From Minisyncoccota bacterium (lineage in GTDB: Bacteria; Patescibacteriota; Minisyncoccia; Phycocordibacterales; UBA9973): a DNA stretch of 43,331 bases. The position numbers were made by a program, and so were the translations under genes. This document shows positions 2,269 through 9,247 of this stretch, piece after piece. The notes below the pieces were generated by a model, which saw only the letters and a program-made list of their open reading frames with translations, had not been told where the DNA came from and made no database searches. How positions within the stretch are numbered: the first letter of the stretch is position 1; every line of letters starts with the position of its first letter. The stretch spans positions 1 through 43,331 of the forward strand of contig JAGOSX010000004.1 in NCBI GenBank assembly GCA_018062065.1. Reading direction: 5' to 3'.

Positions 2269-2601
2269 ATGAACTTAAATGAATATCAACAAAATGCAAT
2301 AAAAACAGCTATTTATCCAGAAAAATATAAGGTTATTTACTCTGCTTTAGGTTTAGGCAATGAAGCTGGAGAGGTTATGGGTAAGATTAAGAAATGGCTT
2401 CGTGGAGATGATGGAGAAGGAAATTTGAGTGAAGAAAGAAAAGAAGCTTTAAAAGGTGAGCTTGGTGACGTGCTTTGGTATTTAGCAGTTTTGGCTCGTG
2501 ATCTTGATTTGGAATTAAATGATATTGCAGAAAGTAATGTTCTCAAATTAAAAGCAAGACAAGAGCAAGGTACTTTAAAAGGAGATGGAGATACAAGATA
2601 A
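2269..2601 (+). CDS. MazG-like nucleotide pyrophosphohydrolase
   Basis: A 110-residue all-alpha protein with the metal-binding pattern of the MazG / dUTPase superfamily: E32xxE35 (NEAGE) and E64xxD67 (ELGDVLWYL). These enzymes cleave NTPs or dNTPs to monophosphate and pyrophosphate and are thought to clean the nucleotide pool. It is a single-domain form, much shorter than E. coli MazG (about 263 residues). Its last 17 bases overlap the start of argS, so the two are a coupled pair. The start follows an extended -10 box by six bases. Confidence 0.85.
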   Translation: MNLNEYQQNAIKTAIYPEKYKVIYSALGLGNEAGEVMGKIKKWLRGDDGEGNLSEERKEALKGELGDVLWYLAVLARDLDLELNDIAESNVLKLKARQEQGTLKGDGDTR

Positions 2602-4384
2602 AATTCAAAATTTAATTAAAGAAGTTTTAACTAGACTTGATATAAAAAGTGAAGCTTCTTTTGTCGTTGAGCATCCTGCAGATATGAAGATGGGGGATTA
2701 TTCTACTAACGTCGCTATGGTTTATGCAAAGCAACTCGGAATGAACCCAAAAGAATTAGCAGAGAAGATTGTAAAAATTTTAACCCCCTCTAGCTCCCCC
2801 TTATCAGGGGGAGAAATTCCCTCATTGATAAGGGAGGGCGAGGGAGGGTTTATTGAAAAAATAGAAGTTGCCGGTCCTGGATTTATAAATTTTTATTTAT
2901 CTAAAAAATTCTTCTTTAATTTTTTAAATGAAATTTTAGAAGATGAAAAATTTGGGAAAAATAATGCTAAAGAGGGAGAGATTATAATGGTTGAATACAC
3001 TGATCCTAATCCTTTCAAGCCTTTTCATATTGGGCATTTGATGAGTAATTCTATCGGAGAGTCTTTATCTCGTCTCGTAGAATATAGCGGTGCTGAAACT
3101 ATTCGCGCTAACTATCAAGGCGACGTCGGACTCCACGTAGCAAAAGCTATTTATGGAATACTACAAAAGGGTATACCGGATTCATCTAAGACTGTAAACG
3201 AGCAAGCCGAATATATCGGTGAATGTTATTCTTTTGCTTCGAATTTATACGAAGAAGACGAAGAAATCAAGAAAGAAATAAATAAAATCAATAAGCAAAT
3301 TTATGAAAAGTCTGATGAGAAGATAAATGAAATCTACATGCTCGGTAGAGTTATTACTCTCGAAGCTTTTGAAAACATTTATAAACTTTTAGGTACGAAG
3401 TTCAAGCATTATTTCTTTGAGTCTGATATGGCAGATAGAGGAACAAAAATCGTGAGAGATAATATGAAAAAGGCTGAAGTCGAAGACGAAAGTCCTGAGA
3501 GTAATCGAAGGATTTTTGAAGAGTCTAACGGCGCTATAGTTTTTCACGGAGAGAAACACGATCCGAAACTTCATACTAGAGTTTTTATAAACTCTGAAGG
3601 TTTGCCTACTTATGAAACGAAAGAAATAGGACTTACCGTTACTAAATTTGAAAAAGAAAATCCTGATACTTCTATAGTTATTACTGCTATTGAGCAAGGC
3701 GAATATATGCGCGTTGTAGCAAAAGCTATTTCTTTAATTTATCCAGAATATGAATCTCGTATGCGTCATATTACTCACGGGATGCTAAGATTTGCTACAG
3801 GTAAAATGAGTTCTCGTAAAGGGAATATTATTACTGGAGAGTCTTTAATCAAAGACGTTTCAAATGCAATCCTCGAGAAAATTAAAGATCGAGATTTTAC
3901 TGAAGGAGAAAAAACAGACATAGCAAATAAAGTTGGGGTAGGGGCTTTGAAATTCTCAATATTAAAGCAAGCTCCAGGAGGAGATATTATTTATGATTTT
4001 GAAAAGTCTATTTCTTTCGAAGGGGATTCAGGTCCGTATTTACAATACTCTTTCGCTCGAGCGAATTCTTTGCTCAATAAGGCAAAAGAGCAAGGTATTG
4101 ATATCAATACTATTTCTAAAAATTCAGAAATTCTAGAAATCGAAAAGATGCTTTATAAATTCCCAGAAGTAGTTATTCGTGCGCAAGAAGAATACGCTCC
4201 GCATTATATTACTCATTATCTACTCGAACTTGCGAGAGCTTTTAATAGTTTCTACGGTAATAATCAAATAGTAAACAAAGAAGACGAATCTTCACCTTAT
4301 AAACTCGCAATCACGAGTGCTTTTGCTCGCATCATGCAAAACGGACTTTATCTCCTAGGTATTGAAAGTCCAGAGAAGATGTAG
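2585..4384 (+). CDS. argS: Arginyl-tRNA synthetase
   Basis: A 599-residue class I synthetase that charges tRNA-Arg. The N-terminal Arg-tRNA synthetase domain is followed by the HIGH motif exactly as HIGH at 148-151 (FKPFHIGHLMSN), a KMSSR-type loop at 407-414 (KMSSRKGN), and a C-terminal DALR anticodon-binding domain (LARAFNSFYGNNQIV). Residues about 67-89 are unlike any ArgRS I know. They are encoded by a GC-rich palindrome in the loop between the N-terminal domain and the conserved VAGPGFINFYLS strand, and they read through in frame. The start overlaps mazG; a GGAG directly abuts the ATG, too close to act as a normal ribosome binding site. No terminator follows; non-coding DNA starts at 4385. 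Confidence 0.95.
   Translation: MEIQDKIQNLIKEVLTRLDIKSEASFVVEHPADMKMGDYSTNVAMVYAKQLGMNPKELAEKIVKILTPSSSPLSGGEIPSLIREGEGGFIEKIEVAGPGFINFYLSKKFFFNFLNEILEDEKFGKNNAKEGEIIMVEYTDPNPFKPFHIGHLMSNSIGESLSRLVEYSGAETIRANYQGDVGLHVAKAIYGILQKGIPDSSKTVNEQAEYIGECYSFASNLYEEDEEIKKEINKINKQIYEKSDEKINEIYMLGRVITLEAFENIYKLLGTKFKHYFFESDMADRGTKIVRDNMKKAEVEDESPESNRRIFEESNGAIVFHGEKHDPKLHTRVFINSEGLPTYETKEIGLTVTKFEKENPDTSIVITAIEQGEYMRVVAKAISLIYPEYESRMRHITHGMLRFATGKMSSRKGNIITGESLIKDVSNAILEKIKDRDFTEGEKTDIANKVGVGALKFSILKQAPGGDIIYDFEKSISFEGDSGPYLQYSFARANSLLNKAKEQGIDINTISKNSEILEIEKMLYKFPEVVIRAQEEYAPHYITHYLLELARAFNSFYGNNQIVNKEDESSPYKLAITSAFARIMQNGLYLLGIESPEKM
2782..2850 (+). repeat. 69-bp palindromic repeat inserted in frame in argS
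   Basis: The outer arms AACCCCCTCTAGC (2782-2794) and the complement of GCGAGGGAGGGTT (2838-2850) pair almost throughout. Inside is a perfect hairpin CTCCCCCT / AGGGGGAG with a four-base loop TATC. The length is 69 bases, a multiple of three, so the gene stays open. The composition is far more GC-rich than the gene around it. Confidence 0.8.
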
Positions 4385-4959: not shown

Positions 4960-4971
4960 TTTTCTATGTCC

Positions 4972-4986
4972 GGCGTCAGTCACGCC
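4972..4986. repeat. Small palindrome GGCGT-CAGTC-ACGCC at the 5' end of ileS
   Basis: A perfect 5-bp stem around CAGTC, GC-rich in an AT-rich context. It shares GTCAGTC with the type A repeats. It lies just after the ATG at 4966 and would encode part of the extra N-terminal residues if that start is used. Confidence 0.5.
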
Positions 4987-5025
4987 TTCCAATATCTTCT
5001 AAAAAATAATTTTGTTTTTAATTTT

Positions 5026-8000
5026 ATGAACCAAGAAGAAAATAAAAAAAGTGAAAGTGCGTTAAGAGAAGAGAAAGTTTTAGAATTTTGGGAGAAGAAT
5101 GAAATCTTTCAAAAATCTATGACAGGTCGCGAAGGAGGAAAAGAATTCGTATTTTACGAAGGACCTCCGACTGCGAACGGTAAACCTGGAATTCATCACC
5201 TCGAAGCTCGTGCTTTTAAAGATATAATACCTCGCTATAAAACTATGCAAGGTTTTCACGTGCGTCGTAAGGGAGGCTGGGACACGCACGGACTTCCAGT
5301 TGAACTTCAAGTAGAGAAGAAATTGGGACTTAATTCTAAAAAGGCTATCGAAGAATACGGTATAGATAAATTTAATAAAGAATGTAAGCAAAGCGTTTGG
5401 GAATACTTAGAATTCTGGAATTCTTTTACGAAGCGTATTGGATATTGGGTTGATCAAGAAAATCCTTATATTACTTATGAGAATAATTATATAGAATCAC
5501 TTTGGAACGTAGTAGGGGAAATAAATAAGCAAGATTTGCTTTATAAGGATTATAAAGTTGTGCCTTGGTGTTCACGTTGCGGAACTGCTCTTTCTTCGCA
5601 CGAACTCGCGCAAGGATACGAAGATGTTAAAGATTTATCTCTTTATGTAAAATTTAAATTAAAACCGGGTCAAAAAATTAGAGACGAAATTATTGATGAT
5701 AATACATATGTTTTGGCATGGACTACTACTCCTTGGACTTTGCCTGGTAACGTAGCTCTAGCTGTAGGTGAAGATATTGATTATTCTTTAATGAAAATTA
5801 TAAAAAATGATACTGAAGAACCACTCAAAGAAACATATATTGTAGCAAAAAATGCTTTATCAAAAAAATTTCCTATTCCTGAAGGATTTCATGCTTATAA
5901 TTATGATACAGAAAATATCAAAGGTAAAGATTTCATCGGTCTAGAATACAAACCGCTTTTTCCATATCTAGAAAATACTATTTCTGATAGCGAAAAGCCT
6001 AAACTAGAAAATGCTTTCAAAGTTTATTCTGCGGATTTCGTGACTACGGAAGACGGAACCGGAATAGTGCATACTGCGGTGATGTACGGAGCGGATGACT
6101 TTAATCTTGGAAACGAAGTAGGATTGCCTAAGCATCATTTAGTAAACCTCGAAGGTAAATTTATAGCTGGGACTGATTTCTTAGCTGGACGATTCGTTAA
6201 AGAAAAAGATGAAGCAGGCAAACCCACTCTCGACGTAGATATCATAAAATATTTGCAAGATAAAAATCTATTCTTCCACAAAGAACTTTATGAGCACTCT
6301 TATCCGCATTGTTGGCGTTGCAAGACGGCTCTCATTTATTATGCTCGCGACTCTTGGTATATCCGTATGTCTAGTCCAGAGATCAAAAATAAAATGATTG
6401 AGGAGAATAAAGGAATTAATTGGGAACCGGAGCATACTCGCGAGGGGCGTTTCGGAGAATGGCTAACTGGAATTAAAGACTGGGCTATTTCTCGCGAGAG
6501 ATATTGGGGAACTCCATTTCCTGTTTGGATTAATGAAGACGGAGAAAAGCTCGTAGTTGATTCTATTGACGCAATTAGAAAATACAGCAAGAAATCTGGA
6601 AATAAATATTTCGTAATGCGTCACGGAGGCACAGAAGGTAATGAAAAAGGAATAGTTTCTTATGGTAAAGAAAGTGAAGATCATTTAACTGAAAAAGGAC
6701 GTCAACAAGTACGCTCTGAAGCAGGGCATTATAAAGGTAAGGTTGATATAGTGATTGCTTCTCCTTTTACTCGTACGAGAGAAACTGCAGAGATAGTTTG
6801 TGAAGAATTAAAAATTTCAAAAGAAAACTTAATTATAGAAAATAGATTGCATGAAATTAACCCTGGAATTTTTGATGGTAAGACTTGGGAAGAATATCAT
6901 GAATATGTATATAACTTTGAGGGCAATTGGTTTGAACAAAAGATAGACGGTGGAGAATCTTTGAAAGAAGTTTATTATAGAATTGCTAGCGTAATCTATG
7001 AGGTAGAAGAAAAATACAAAGGAAAAAATATTCTTTTTGTTACTCACGGAGGTCCGGCTTGGCTTTTCTTCGTCGCTTCAGGCGAATTTTTACCACATAA
7101 GCAAGATTATGAAAAAGCGAATACTCAAGCTTTCGTAAAAAGTTTCAAAAGATTTCAAAATGCTGAGATTAGAGAACTTCATTTCTCTCCGCTTCCACAT
7201 GACGAAAATTATGAACTAGATCTGCATCGTCCTTATATAGACGAAGTCGTATTAGAGCGTGAAGGTAAAGAATATCGTAGAGTGAAAGAAGTTATGGACG
7301 TTTGGTTTGATAGTGGAGCTATGCCTTTTGCGCAGGATCATTATCCTTTCGAATTCTCTCAAGATAAACCGTTCTCAAACAAAGATATTTCATATCCTGC
7401 CGATTTTATTTCTGAAGCTATTGATCAAACGAGAGGATGGTTTTATACACTTCATGCGGTGGGGACTTTGATGGGAAGAGGTAAAGCTTATAAGAACGTG
7501 ATTTGTCTCGGGCATTTGCTCGATGCGAAAGGCAAGAAAATGAGTAAGTCTTTGGGTAATATTGTTGACCCTTGGATTATGATGGATAAATATGGAGTTG
7601 ATACTTTGCGTCTTTGGATGTATTCGGTGAATCAACCAGGAGAAAGTAAAAACTTTGATGAGAAGACTGTAGCGATATTGCATAGTCAGGTTTTCGGGCT
7701 ACTCTATAACGTGCTCGCTTTCTATGAACTTTATCGAGACAAAGATTTAGAAAAGAATGAATTTATAAAAAGTGAAAATATTTTAGATGTTTGGATTTTA
7801 GCGAAATTAAGTGAGCTCGTAGAATCAGTAACTAATAACCTCGATAATTATAAAGTCTTAGAACCGACTCGAGCTATTCGTGATTTTATTGGAGATTTAT
7901 CTACTTGGTATGTGCGTCGTTCCCGCGAAAGAATAAAAGATGGAGATAGAGAAGCTAAGCAAACTTTATACTTTGTATTGAAAAATCTTGCGAAAGTTAT

Positions 8001-8589
8001 AGCTCCTTTTGCTCCGTTTTCTGCAGAAGATATTTGGTTAAAACTTAGAAATGATAATGATCTTGAAAGTGTGCATTTAGCAAATTGGCCCTACGTCGCC
8101 GAGGCTTTGCAGGGCAAGCCAGAAGTTCTCGACAATATGAAGTTAGTTAGAGATTTAGTTTCTACTGGACTTCAAATGCGTCAAAAGAATAATTTGCCAG
8201 TTCGTCAGCCATTATCTTCGTTTACAATTACAAATAAAGATTTTCAAAAAGAATCTTTAGAAATATTGAAAGATGAACTAAACGTTAAAGAAATTATTTT
8301 TGGAGAAGAGATAAACCTAAATACAGAAATTACCGAAGAATTAAAAGAAGAAGGGAATTATCGTGAATTTTTGCGCTCTGTGCAAGATTTGCGCAAGAAA
8401 GAAGGTTTAGTCCCGAGTGATATGATTAATGTTTTTATTGAGACTAATGAAGAAGGTAAAAACTTAATCAATAAATTTGAAGCTGAATTCAAAAAAGTTG
8501 CTGGAATTAGTGAAATTTCTTTTGCTGCAAATGACGGATTTGAAGTTAAAGTAGGGGAATTAGTATTTAAAATCAAAATAGAAAAATAA
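5026..8589 (+). CDS. ileS: Isoleucyl-tRNA synthetase with inserted histidine-phosphatase domain
   Basis: From ATG 5026 this is a 1187-residue class I synthetase. Its HIGH motif is the variant GIHH (55-58), found in the IleRS type also known from eukaryotes. KMSKS is at 838-842, editing-domain landmarks are present (TTTPWTLPGN), and the C-terminus has a DUF5915-like domain. Between the WGTP block and the DLHRPYID block lies about 160 extra residues with a complete phosphoglycerate-mutase-type signature: R532-H533-G534, R583 in SPFTR, E610 in RLHE and H674 in VTHGG. A start at 4966 would add 20 residues encoded by a repeat; homology favours 5026, while a -10 box six bases before 4966 keeps that start possible. 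The T-box upstream implies control by tRNA-Ile charging. Confidence 0.93.
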   Translation: MNQEENKKSESALREEKVLEFWEKNEIFQKSMTGREGGKEFVFYEGPPTANGKPGIHHLEARAFKDIIPRYKTMQGFHVRRKGGWDTHGLPVELQVEKKLGLNSKKAIEEYGIDKFNKECKQSVWEYLEFWNSFTKRIGYWVDQENPYITYENNYIESLWNVVGEINKQDLLYKDYKVVPWCSRCGTALSSHELAQGYEDVKDLSLYVKFKLKPGQKIRDEIIDDNTYVLAWTTTPWTLPGNVALAVGEDIDYSLMKIIKNDTEEPLKETYIVAKNALSKKFPIPEGFHAYNYDTENIKGKDFIGLEYKPLFPYLENTISDSEKPKLENAFKVYSADFVTTEDGTGIVHTAVMYGADDFNLGNEVGLPKHHLVNLEGKFIAGTDFLAGRFVKEKDEAGKPTLDVDIIKYLQDKNLFFHKELYEHSYPHCWRCKTALIYYARDSWYIRMSSPEIKNKMIEENKGINWEPEHTREGRFGEWLTGIKDWAISRERYWGTPFPVWINEDGEKLVVDSIDAIRKYSKKSGNKYFVMRHGGTEGNEKGIVSYGKESEDHLTEKGRQQVRSEAGHYKGKVDIVIASPFTRTRETAEIVCEELKISKENLIIENRLHEINPGIFDGKTWEEYHEYVYNFEGNWFEQKIDGGESLKEVYYRIASVIYEVEEKYKGKNILFVTHGGPAWLFFVASGEFLPHKQDYEKANTQAFVKSFKRFQNAEIRELHFSPLPHDENYELDLHRPYIDEVVLEREGKEYRRVKEVMDVWFDSGAMPFAQDHYPFEFSQDKPFSNKDISYPADFISEAIDQTRGWFYTLHAVGTLMGRGKAYKNVICLGHLLDAKGKKMSKSLGNIVDPWIMMDKYGVDTLRLWMYSVNQPGESKNFDEKTVAILHSQVFGLLYNVLAFYELYRDKDLEKNEFIKSENILDVWILAKLSELVESVTNNLDNYKVLEPTRAIRDFIGDLSTWYVRRSRERIKDGDREAKQTLYFVLKNLAKVIAPFAPFSAEDIWLKLRNDNDLESVHLANWPYVAEALQGKPEVLDNMKLVRDLVSTGLQMRQKNNLPVRQPLSSFTITNKDFQKESLEILKDELNVKEIIFGEEINLNTEITEELKEEGNYREFLRSVQDLRKKEGLVPSDMINVFIETNEEGKNLINKFEAEFKKVAGISEISFAANDGFEVKVGELVFKIKIEK

Positions 8590-8590
8590 T

Positions 8591-9247
8591 ATGAGAAATA
8601 TTTTAGAAATTTACGAACATTATAAAATAATGCCGAATCTTGCCTTGCACCAGCTAAGAGTAGCGAGTGTTATAGCTTTGATTTGTAAAAACCTTGAGAT
8701 AAAAGTTGATGAAGACATAGCGATACAATCAGGGTTACTTCATGATATGGGTAATATTATTAAATTTGATTTAACTTATTTTCCAGAATTTAATGAGCCT
8801 TTAGGTTTAGCCTATTGGCAAAATATTCAAAAAGAATATTTTGAAAAATATGGAACTGATGAACATGAAGCTACTCAAAAAATCTTAAAAGAATTAGGTA
8901 TTAATGACCGTGTTATAGAAATAGATAGTAAAATGATTTTTGGAAATTTATGCATCGATAAAGAAGGTAATGATTGGGAATTGAAATTACTTCATTATGC
9001 AGATATGAGAGTAGGACCTTTCGGAGTTTTATCTTATGAAGATCGTATGGAAGATGCGAGGAAAAGATATGCAAATGCACCAGAGGATGAAATGACTAGA
9101 GAGCAAAATAGAAGAGAGTTATTGCTTGCTTGCGGTAAAGATATAGAAACTCAAATTTTTGAGCATTGCAAAATCCGCCCCGAAGATATTAACGATGAAT
9201 CAATAGCACCGATATTAGAAGAGCTCAAGGGTTATATGATAAAATAA
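8591..9247 (+). CDS. HD-domain phosphohydrolase-like protein
   Basis: A 218-residue protein with the HD-superfamily pattern: H20 near the N-terminus (ALHQLRVAS), H51-D52 in GLLHDMGN, a histidine in DEHEATQ, and an aspartate in HYADMRVGP. These residues bind metal in HD phosphohydrolases that act on nucleotides or similar phosphoesters. The substrate is unknown. The start lies one base after the ileS stop (TAA T ATG) without a ribosome binding site, so it is probably translated by re-initiation on the ileS message. Confidence 0.8.
   Translation: MRNILEIYEHYKIMPNLALHQLRVASVIALICKNLEIKVDEDIAIQSGLLHDMGNIIKFDLTYFPEFNEPLGLAYWQNIQKEYFEKYGTDEHEATQKILKELGINDRVIEIDSKMIFGNLCIDKEGNDWELKLLHYADMRVGPFGVLSYEDRMEDARKRYANAPEDEMTREQNRRELLLACGKDIETQIFEHCKIRPEDINDESIAPILEELKGYMIK

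Follow-up and report, generated by a model that had tools for sequence, protein, structure and literature searches.

A histidine phosphatase domain inserted between the two catalytic-core halves of isoleucyl-tRNA synthetase in Patescibacteria

We analyzed a window of 43,331 nucleotides, i.e., the whole stretch of contig JAGOSX010000004.1 considered here, from a Minisyncoccota bacterium of the Patescibacteria (CPR). One of its genes (5026..8589, forward strand, as for all window features below) encodes a protein of 1187 aa; the ORF could also begin at 4966 (4966..8589). Judged by its score against the equivalog model TIGR00392 (860 bits, above the cut-off of 621.4), the product is an isoleucyl-tRNA synthetase (IleRS), and it is of type 2 (IleRS2-like). 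Both class I signatures are found, HIGH in the altered form GIHH (5188..5199) and KMSKS in the second half of the catalytic core (7537..7551). The GXHH form of HIGH has been described in mupirocin hyper-resistant IleRS2 (PMC10485003), and GXHH or AXHH forms are common among CPR IleRS. The closest solved structure is P. megaterium IleRS2 (8c8u; 44% identity, 918 aligned residues, Z 44). The overall fold is alike and a GXHH-type signature is found in both groups (PMC10485003), whereas the solved type-2 enzymes lack the histidine phosphatase (HP) insert that the window IleRS carries. The upstream neighbor is an ArgRS gene (2585..4384), and this ArgRS–IleRS order is kept where HP is a separate gene between the two. 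Directly downstream lies a gene for an HD-domain protein (8591..9247; PF01966, 24.8 bits, cut-off 22). We rejected its identification as a YqeK-type Ap4A hydrolase, as TIGR00488 was not among the matches listed. In two other loci (L074 and L125), the C-terminus of IleRS is itself fused to an HD domain.

The original prediction had placed a histidine phosphatase with a full catalytic set between the WGTP and DLHRPYID blocks of the synthetase, at 6540-7180. The place held, and the limits were revised to 6601..7209 (residues 526 to 728, the C-terminal limit being approximate). This segment lies between WGTPFPVW...KKSG and DLHRPYID and is absent from the insert-free IleRS of relatives. It follows the CP1 editing domain and, within the CP2 region, separates one half of the HUP catalytic core from the other (the terms core halves, CP1, and CP2 follow PMC10485003). 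The domain proper spans residues 529-682 (6610..7071) and matches His_Phos_1 (PF00300) with 113.3 bits (cut-off 21.7, E 1.4e-32). All residues named in the prediction, counted from the start at 5026, are exactly where it had put them: the RHG motif R532-H533-G534 (6619..6627), with H533 as the presumed phospho-accepting histidine and no variation at R or H in alignments A2 and A3; the phosphate-binding arginine R583 (6772..6774) and the second catalytic histidine H674 (7045..7047), both invariant in the alignments; and the general acid/base E610 (6853..6855), which is Glu in 98% of the inserts at this site (site A) and Asp in the rest. AF2 models were confident for the whole protein (window protein plus 56 relatives; mean pLDDT 89, pTM 0.82) as well as for the domain alone (pLDDT 93.3, pTM 0.89). 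Both cysteine pairs of a CxxC...CxC knuckle flank HP in 61 of 132 IleRS with HP; the window IleRS has lost these cysteines. A search of the insert borders for traces of mobile elements yielded short AT-rich repeats only.

By profile and residue content, the insert is a complete domain of branch 1 of the histidine phosphatase superfamily, of the PhoE/CobC/PspA kind. PhoE was the best profile match (E 2e-28), and the model adopts a phosphoglycerate-mutase-like fold, with closest structural matches to PspA (4ij6; Z 20.1, rmsd 2.4 over 168) and PhoE (1ebb, Z 18.9; 1h2e, Z 18.7). The closest solved relatives are the phosphomonoesterases PspA, PhoE, and CobC, together with a riboflavin-pathway phosphatase. 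PspA (4ij5/4ij6), PhoE (1h2e), and CobC share the fold, the RHG motif, the second Arg, the acid/base Glu, and the second His with the window HP (Z 18-20, 24-25% identity), but only the window HP sits inside a synthetase. The equivalog cut-offs of the named subfamilies were all missed (score/cut-off: CobC 82.2/162.9, PspA 58.3/350, dPGM_arch 59.1/225, SixA 27.5/74.5), and we rejected an assignment as phosphoserine phosphatase since the score is far under the PspA cut-off. Pro613 of the window HP aligns with the His of the PspA motif "EIDHG", a residue which we take to be a mark of phosphoserine phosphatases.

The insert is not confined to the window genome, as the original prediction had suspected. 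We scanned 84,980 species genomes and obtained 80 loci, 78 of which carry HP inside IleRS at this site; in the remaining two (L134 and L137), HP is a separate gene. The sources are CPR-named or unnamed MAGs, except for one 3-kb contig binned as Spirochaetales. This contig (L100, SLST01000362.1) carries a CPR-type IleRS with HP and is probably a binning error. We also sampled the window's class evenly: IleRS was detected in 136 of 142 genomes, and HP lies within a long, IleRS-sized frame (≥577 aa, mostly 1100-1260) in about 95 of the 142, a count made from a listing in which frame coordinates agree with interrupted IleRS matches and frames were not checked singly. Phylum-wide, the insert is rarer than in this class. 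Because many genomes that were assembled independently share the insert at this position, chance, contamination, and an assembly chimera, the last of which would have undone the prediction, can be ruled out.

Conservation argues that the domain is intact and under selection, in line with what had been proposed from the window alone. Of 130 site-A inserts, 129 have the full catalytic set R-H...R...E/D...H, and the lone exception is interrupted by an ORF break. It is likewise intact at site B (11/11), site D (3/3), and site C (1/1), in 10/10 separate or nearby HPs, and in 8/9 ValRS inserts. The catalytic columns are the least variable of the insert alignment, and shortened HPs that have lost about 35 middle residues (L123, L125, and L135) retain the quartet. 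We also observed that in the shortened inserts of L123, L125, L135, and L147, the missing residues (~35) include the GGES segment, with the checked catalytic residues kept. In close pairs, dN/dS was 0.035-0.163 for HP versus 0.059-0.177 for the N-terminal part of the host. A degenerate insert is rejected by the complete catalytic set and the low dN/dS. GC3 of HP tracks that of the host (r 0.94, 116 genes), and in many relatives of 0.5-0.7 Mb, the sole His_Phos_1 match is the IleRS-sized frame (e.g., G501, G504, G509, G516, G526, G527, and G535-G538).

The history of the insert differs from that of its host. On a tree of 175 IleRS with the insert removed, the insert state changed at least 16-29 times. 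Among 35 IleRS with the insert, trees of the N-terminal part and of the C-terminal part recover an identical pair of clades (support 99 and 100). Imposed on the HP data, this split is rejected (log-likelihood 122 lower, AU p 4e-64), and the groupings obtained from HP are in turn rejected by the IleRS data (AU p 3e-5 and 5e-85), in tests for which some groups were named after the trees were seen and which do not extend to the route of exchange. As the flanks share one history and HP has another, these sequence comparisons indicate that the insert has been exchanged between IleRS genes as a unit, i.e., as a cassette without its flanks. Unrelated HP lineages have entered IleRS at several sites, and ValRS as well. 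Other CPR families carry HPs of other lineages at the same IleRS site, and have further sites before VWFDSG, after WFESG, and after the KMSKS half. Use of the second site (before VWFDSG) leads to tandem A+B proteins of about 1450-1550 aa. One IleRS of 1572 aa (L040, 1667-6382) has three HP domains at three different sites. HP also occurs in ValRS (L039, L041, L045, L048, L050, L051, L063, L064, L227, and L233), partly at the equivalent place. Other fusion partners of HP are pyruvate kinase, an MFS protein, a PGDH-like dehydrogenase, and a DedA-like protein; in relatives of the window's genus, HP is fused ahead of the pyruvate kinase barrel (L228, 1639-3096, minus strand; L230, 2465-3910).

HP can also stand beside IleRS as a gene of its own. 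Nine loci (L134, L137, L154, L156, L157, and L174-L177) show ArgRS, HP, and IleRS as adjacent genes on the same strand, with an HP of about 185-215 aa just upstream of an IleRS without insert and ORFs that often overlap; in L157, HP and IleRS are separated by a SpoT-like HD gene. By a rough estimate based on about 40 insert-free IleRS, about 0.2 such loci would be expected by chance. In the HP tree, many inner branches of which are weakly supported, the class-insert lineage includes eight of the ten separate or nearby HPs, and those of L157 and L179 branch beside it. Taken together, placement and adjacency indicate that the domain can exit the synthetase yet stay next to it; HP is coupled to IleRS in cis or as a neighbor gene.

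Other enzymes occupy comparable inserts in class Ia synthetases of these bacteria. IleRS inserts are mostly HP, and the scanned NUDIX inserts lie mainly in LeuRS: they were confirmed in five LeuRS of the class (L236, L237, L239, L240, and L243), and close NUDIX relatives occur in long frames, not each confirmed as LeuRS, in about 17 of 142 genomes. Single LeuRS inserts are Ham1 (L241) and a nucleotidyltransferase (L234), and a serine hydrolase is found in L236 and L237. Three ValRS carry a PF06821 serine hydrolase (L048, 827-4657; L055, 695-4537; L246, 1077-4355); those of L048 and L055 carry HP too, and that of L048 also a HAD insert. ValRS in this class is often very short (ORFs of about 650-760 aa, e.g., G000:C1:2569-4749), the region matching the C-terminal portion of the TIGR00422 model being absent. 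Within IleRS, one locus has an inserted GNAT acetyltransferase (L036, 2138-6490, minus strand) and another a NUDIX domain in the CP1 region (L214, 3193-6780; 84.7 bits). The nearest registered case of an enzyme-bearing synthetase, the class to which we assign the window IleRS, is ileS_w_GNAT (NCBIfam NF040702). Both have an extra small-molecule enzyme domain, but the added enzyme differs (acetyltransferase versus HP). The window IleRS is not a member of that family (361.3 bits, cut-off 1999), and the Pfam search matched no GNAT domain in it. Our search, restricted to open-access literature (subscription papers and preprints lay outside it), turned up no description of an HP domain in an aminoacyl-tRNA synthetase, and AARS Online nowhere mentions a phosphatase.

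Given its conserved residues, HP is probably an active phosphatase. It would hydrolyze a phosphomonoester via a phosphohistidine on H533, and this activity may serve isoleucylation. Our main reading, to which we give a probability of roughly 0.4, is that a phosphatase of the PhoE/CobC/PspA kind does so, likeliest by protective house-cleaning: it would remove a small phosphorylated molecule that accumulates at, or poisons, the synthetic site, with a nucleotide by-product, a damaged nucleotide, or an inhibitory phospho-compound as candidate substrates. House-cleaning is judged likelier because sister synthetases hold NUDIX, Ham1, HAD, serine hydrolase, and GNAT domains in comparable inserts. Action on aminoacylation by-products or nucleotides, or regulation of the synthetase, as put forward in the original prediction, would likewise be candidate roles. 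NUDIX, HP, HAD, and GNAT are common families, however, and how often they occur may explain part of the clean-up theme. It also counts against the proposal that the insert has been gained and lost many times, so that most CPR IleRS function without HP. Two specific roles found no support and were discarded: replacement of a missing pyrophosphatase, since the window genome has the soluble enzyme (PF00719), which is rare in the class whether the insert is present or not; and clearance of (p)ppGpp, since neither the f165 genomes with separate HP nor several of the insert genomes have RelA/SpoT. Neither of these nucleotide pathways (pyrophosphatase, RelA/SpoT) tracks HP across genomes. Nor is the HP insert associated with the GXHH signature (Fisher p 0.35; 14 independent pairs, sign test p 1).

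The variety of inserted enzymes, the patchy gain and loss, and the HP fusions to non-synthetase proteins fit a second explanation. The loops of CPR class Ia synthetases (CP2 and others) may simply tolerate compact domains with close termini, HP being an ordinary metabolic phosphatase parked there and unlinked to aminoacylation. We consider this doubtful though far from negligible, because the pairing is specific, with HP mainly in IleRS and the scanned NUDIX mainly in LeuRS, and because HPs outside the synthetase adjoin IleRS far above the chance estimate and belong largely to the insert lineage. This coupling in cis and as a neighbor gene would in turn suit a built-in protein phosphatase that dephosphorylates Ser, Thr, or His of IleRS or a partner and thereby keeps or switches IleRS activity. 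Some histidine phosphatases do target proteins, e.g., SixA acting on phospho-Ndk (PMC12934123). This role appears unlikely to us, as our data indicate neither a phosphorylated IleRS nor a cognate kinase and the nearest HP relatives are small-molecule phosphatases; moreover, HP lineages differ among sites, which makes one shared internal target less likely.

The chief caveat to an active phosphatase is that conservation of an RHG domain does not guarantee activity, as illustrated by mycobacterial MutT1, in which the RHG domain by itself was inactive in the published assays, the exchange H170A left the measured activity unchanged, and the domain supports its partner structurally (PMC11784022). 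As in the window protein, an RHG domain is joined there to another nucleotide-handling enzyme; in contrast to it, the partner is NUDIX and the fusion is end-to-end (PMC11784022). A purely structural module with dispensable catalysis, which would stabilize CP2 or aid tRNA or partner binding, is nevertheless improbable here: MutT1 offers the precedent and the IleRS inserts are large and predicted to be well ordered, but the catalytic columns are the least variable and have almost no exceptions, trimmed versions and separate genes included.

Returning to house-cleaning, we tentatively extend it to a broader picture, which may well prove too wide: class Ia synthetases of CPR would be platforms that take up, swap, and release clean-up enzymes, and the HP of IleRS would be a new quality-control domain for phosphorylated molecules at the site of aminoacylation. 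An essential enzyme with an ancient catalytic core, IleRS retains a second enzyme in its interior throughout much of a bacterial class, and the catalytic residues of that second enzyme are conserved as strictly as the synthetase's own; this points to an unmet need of aminoacylation in these minimal cells. An exchange of only the insert between IleRS genes is an unusual evolutionary event for an essential gene. The natural set of genomes with the insert, with a separate neighbor gene, or with neither renders the functional question directly testable. If the broader picture is true, quality control by HP would stand beside the known editing domain, which handles mischarged amino acids.
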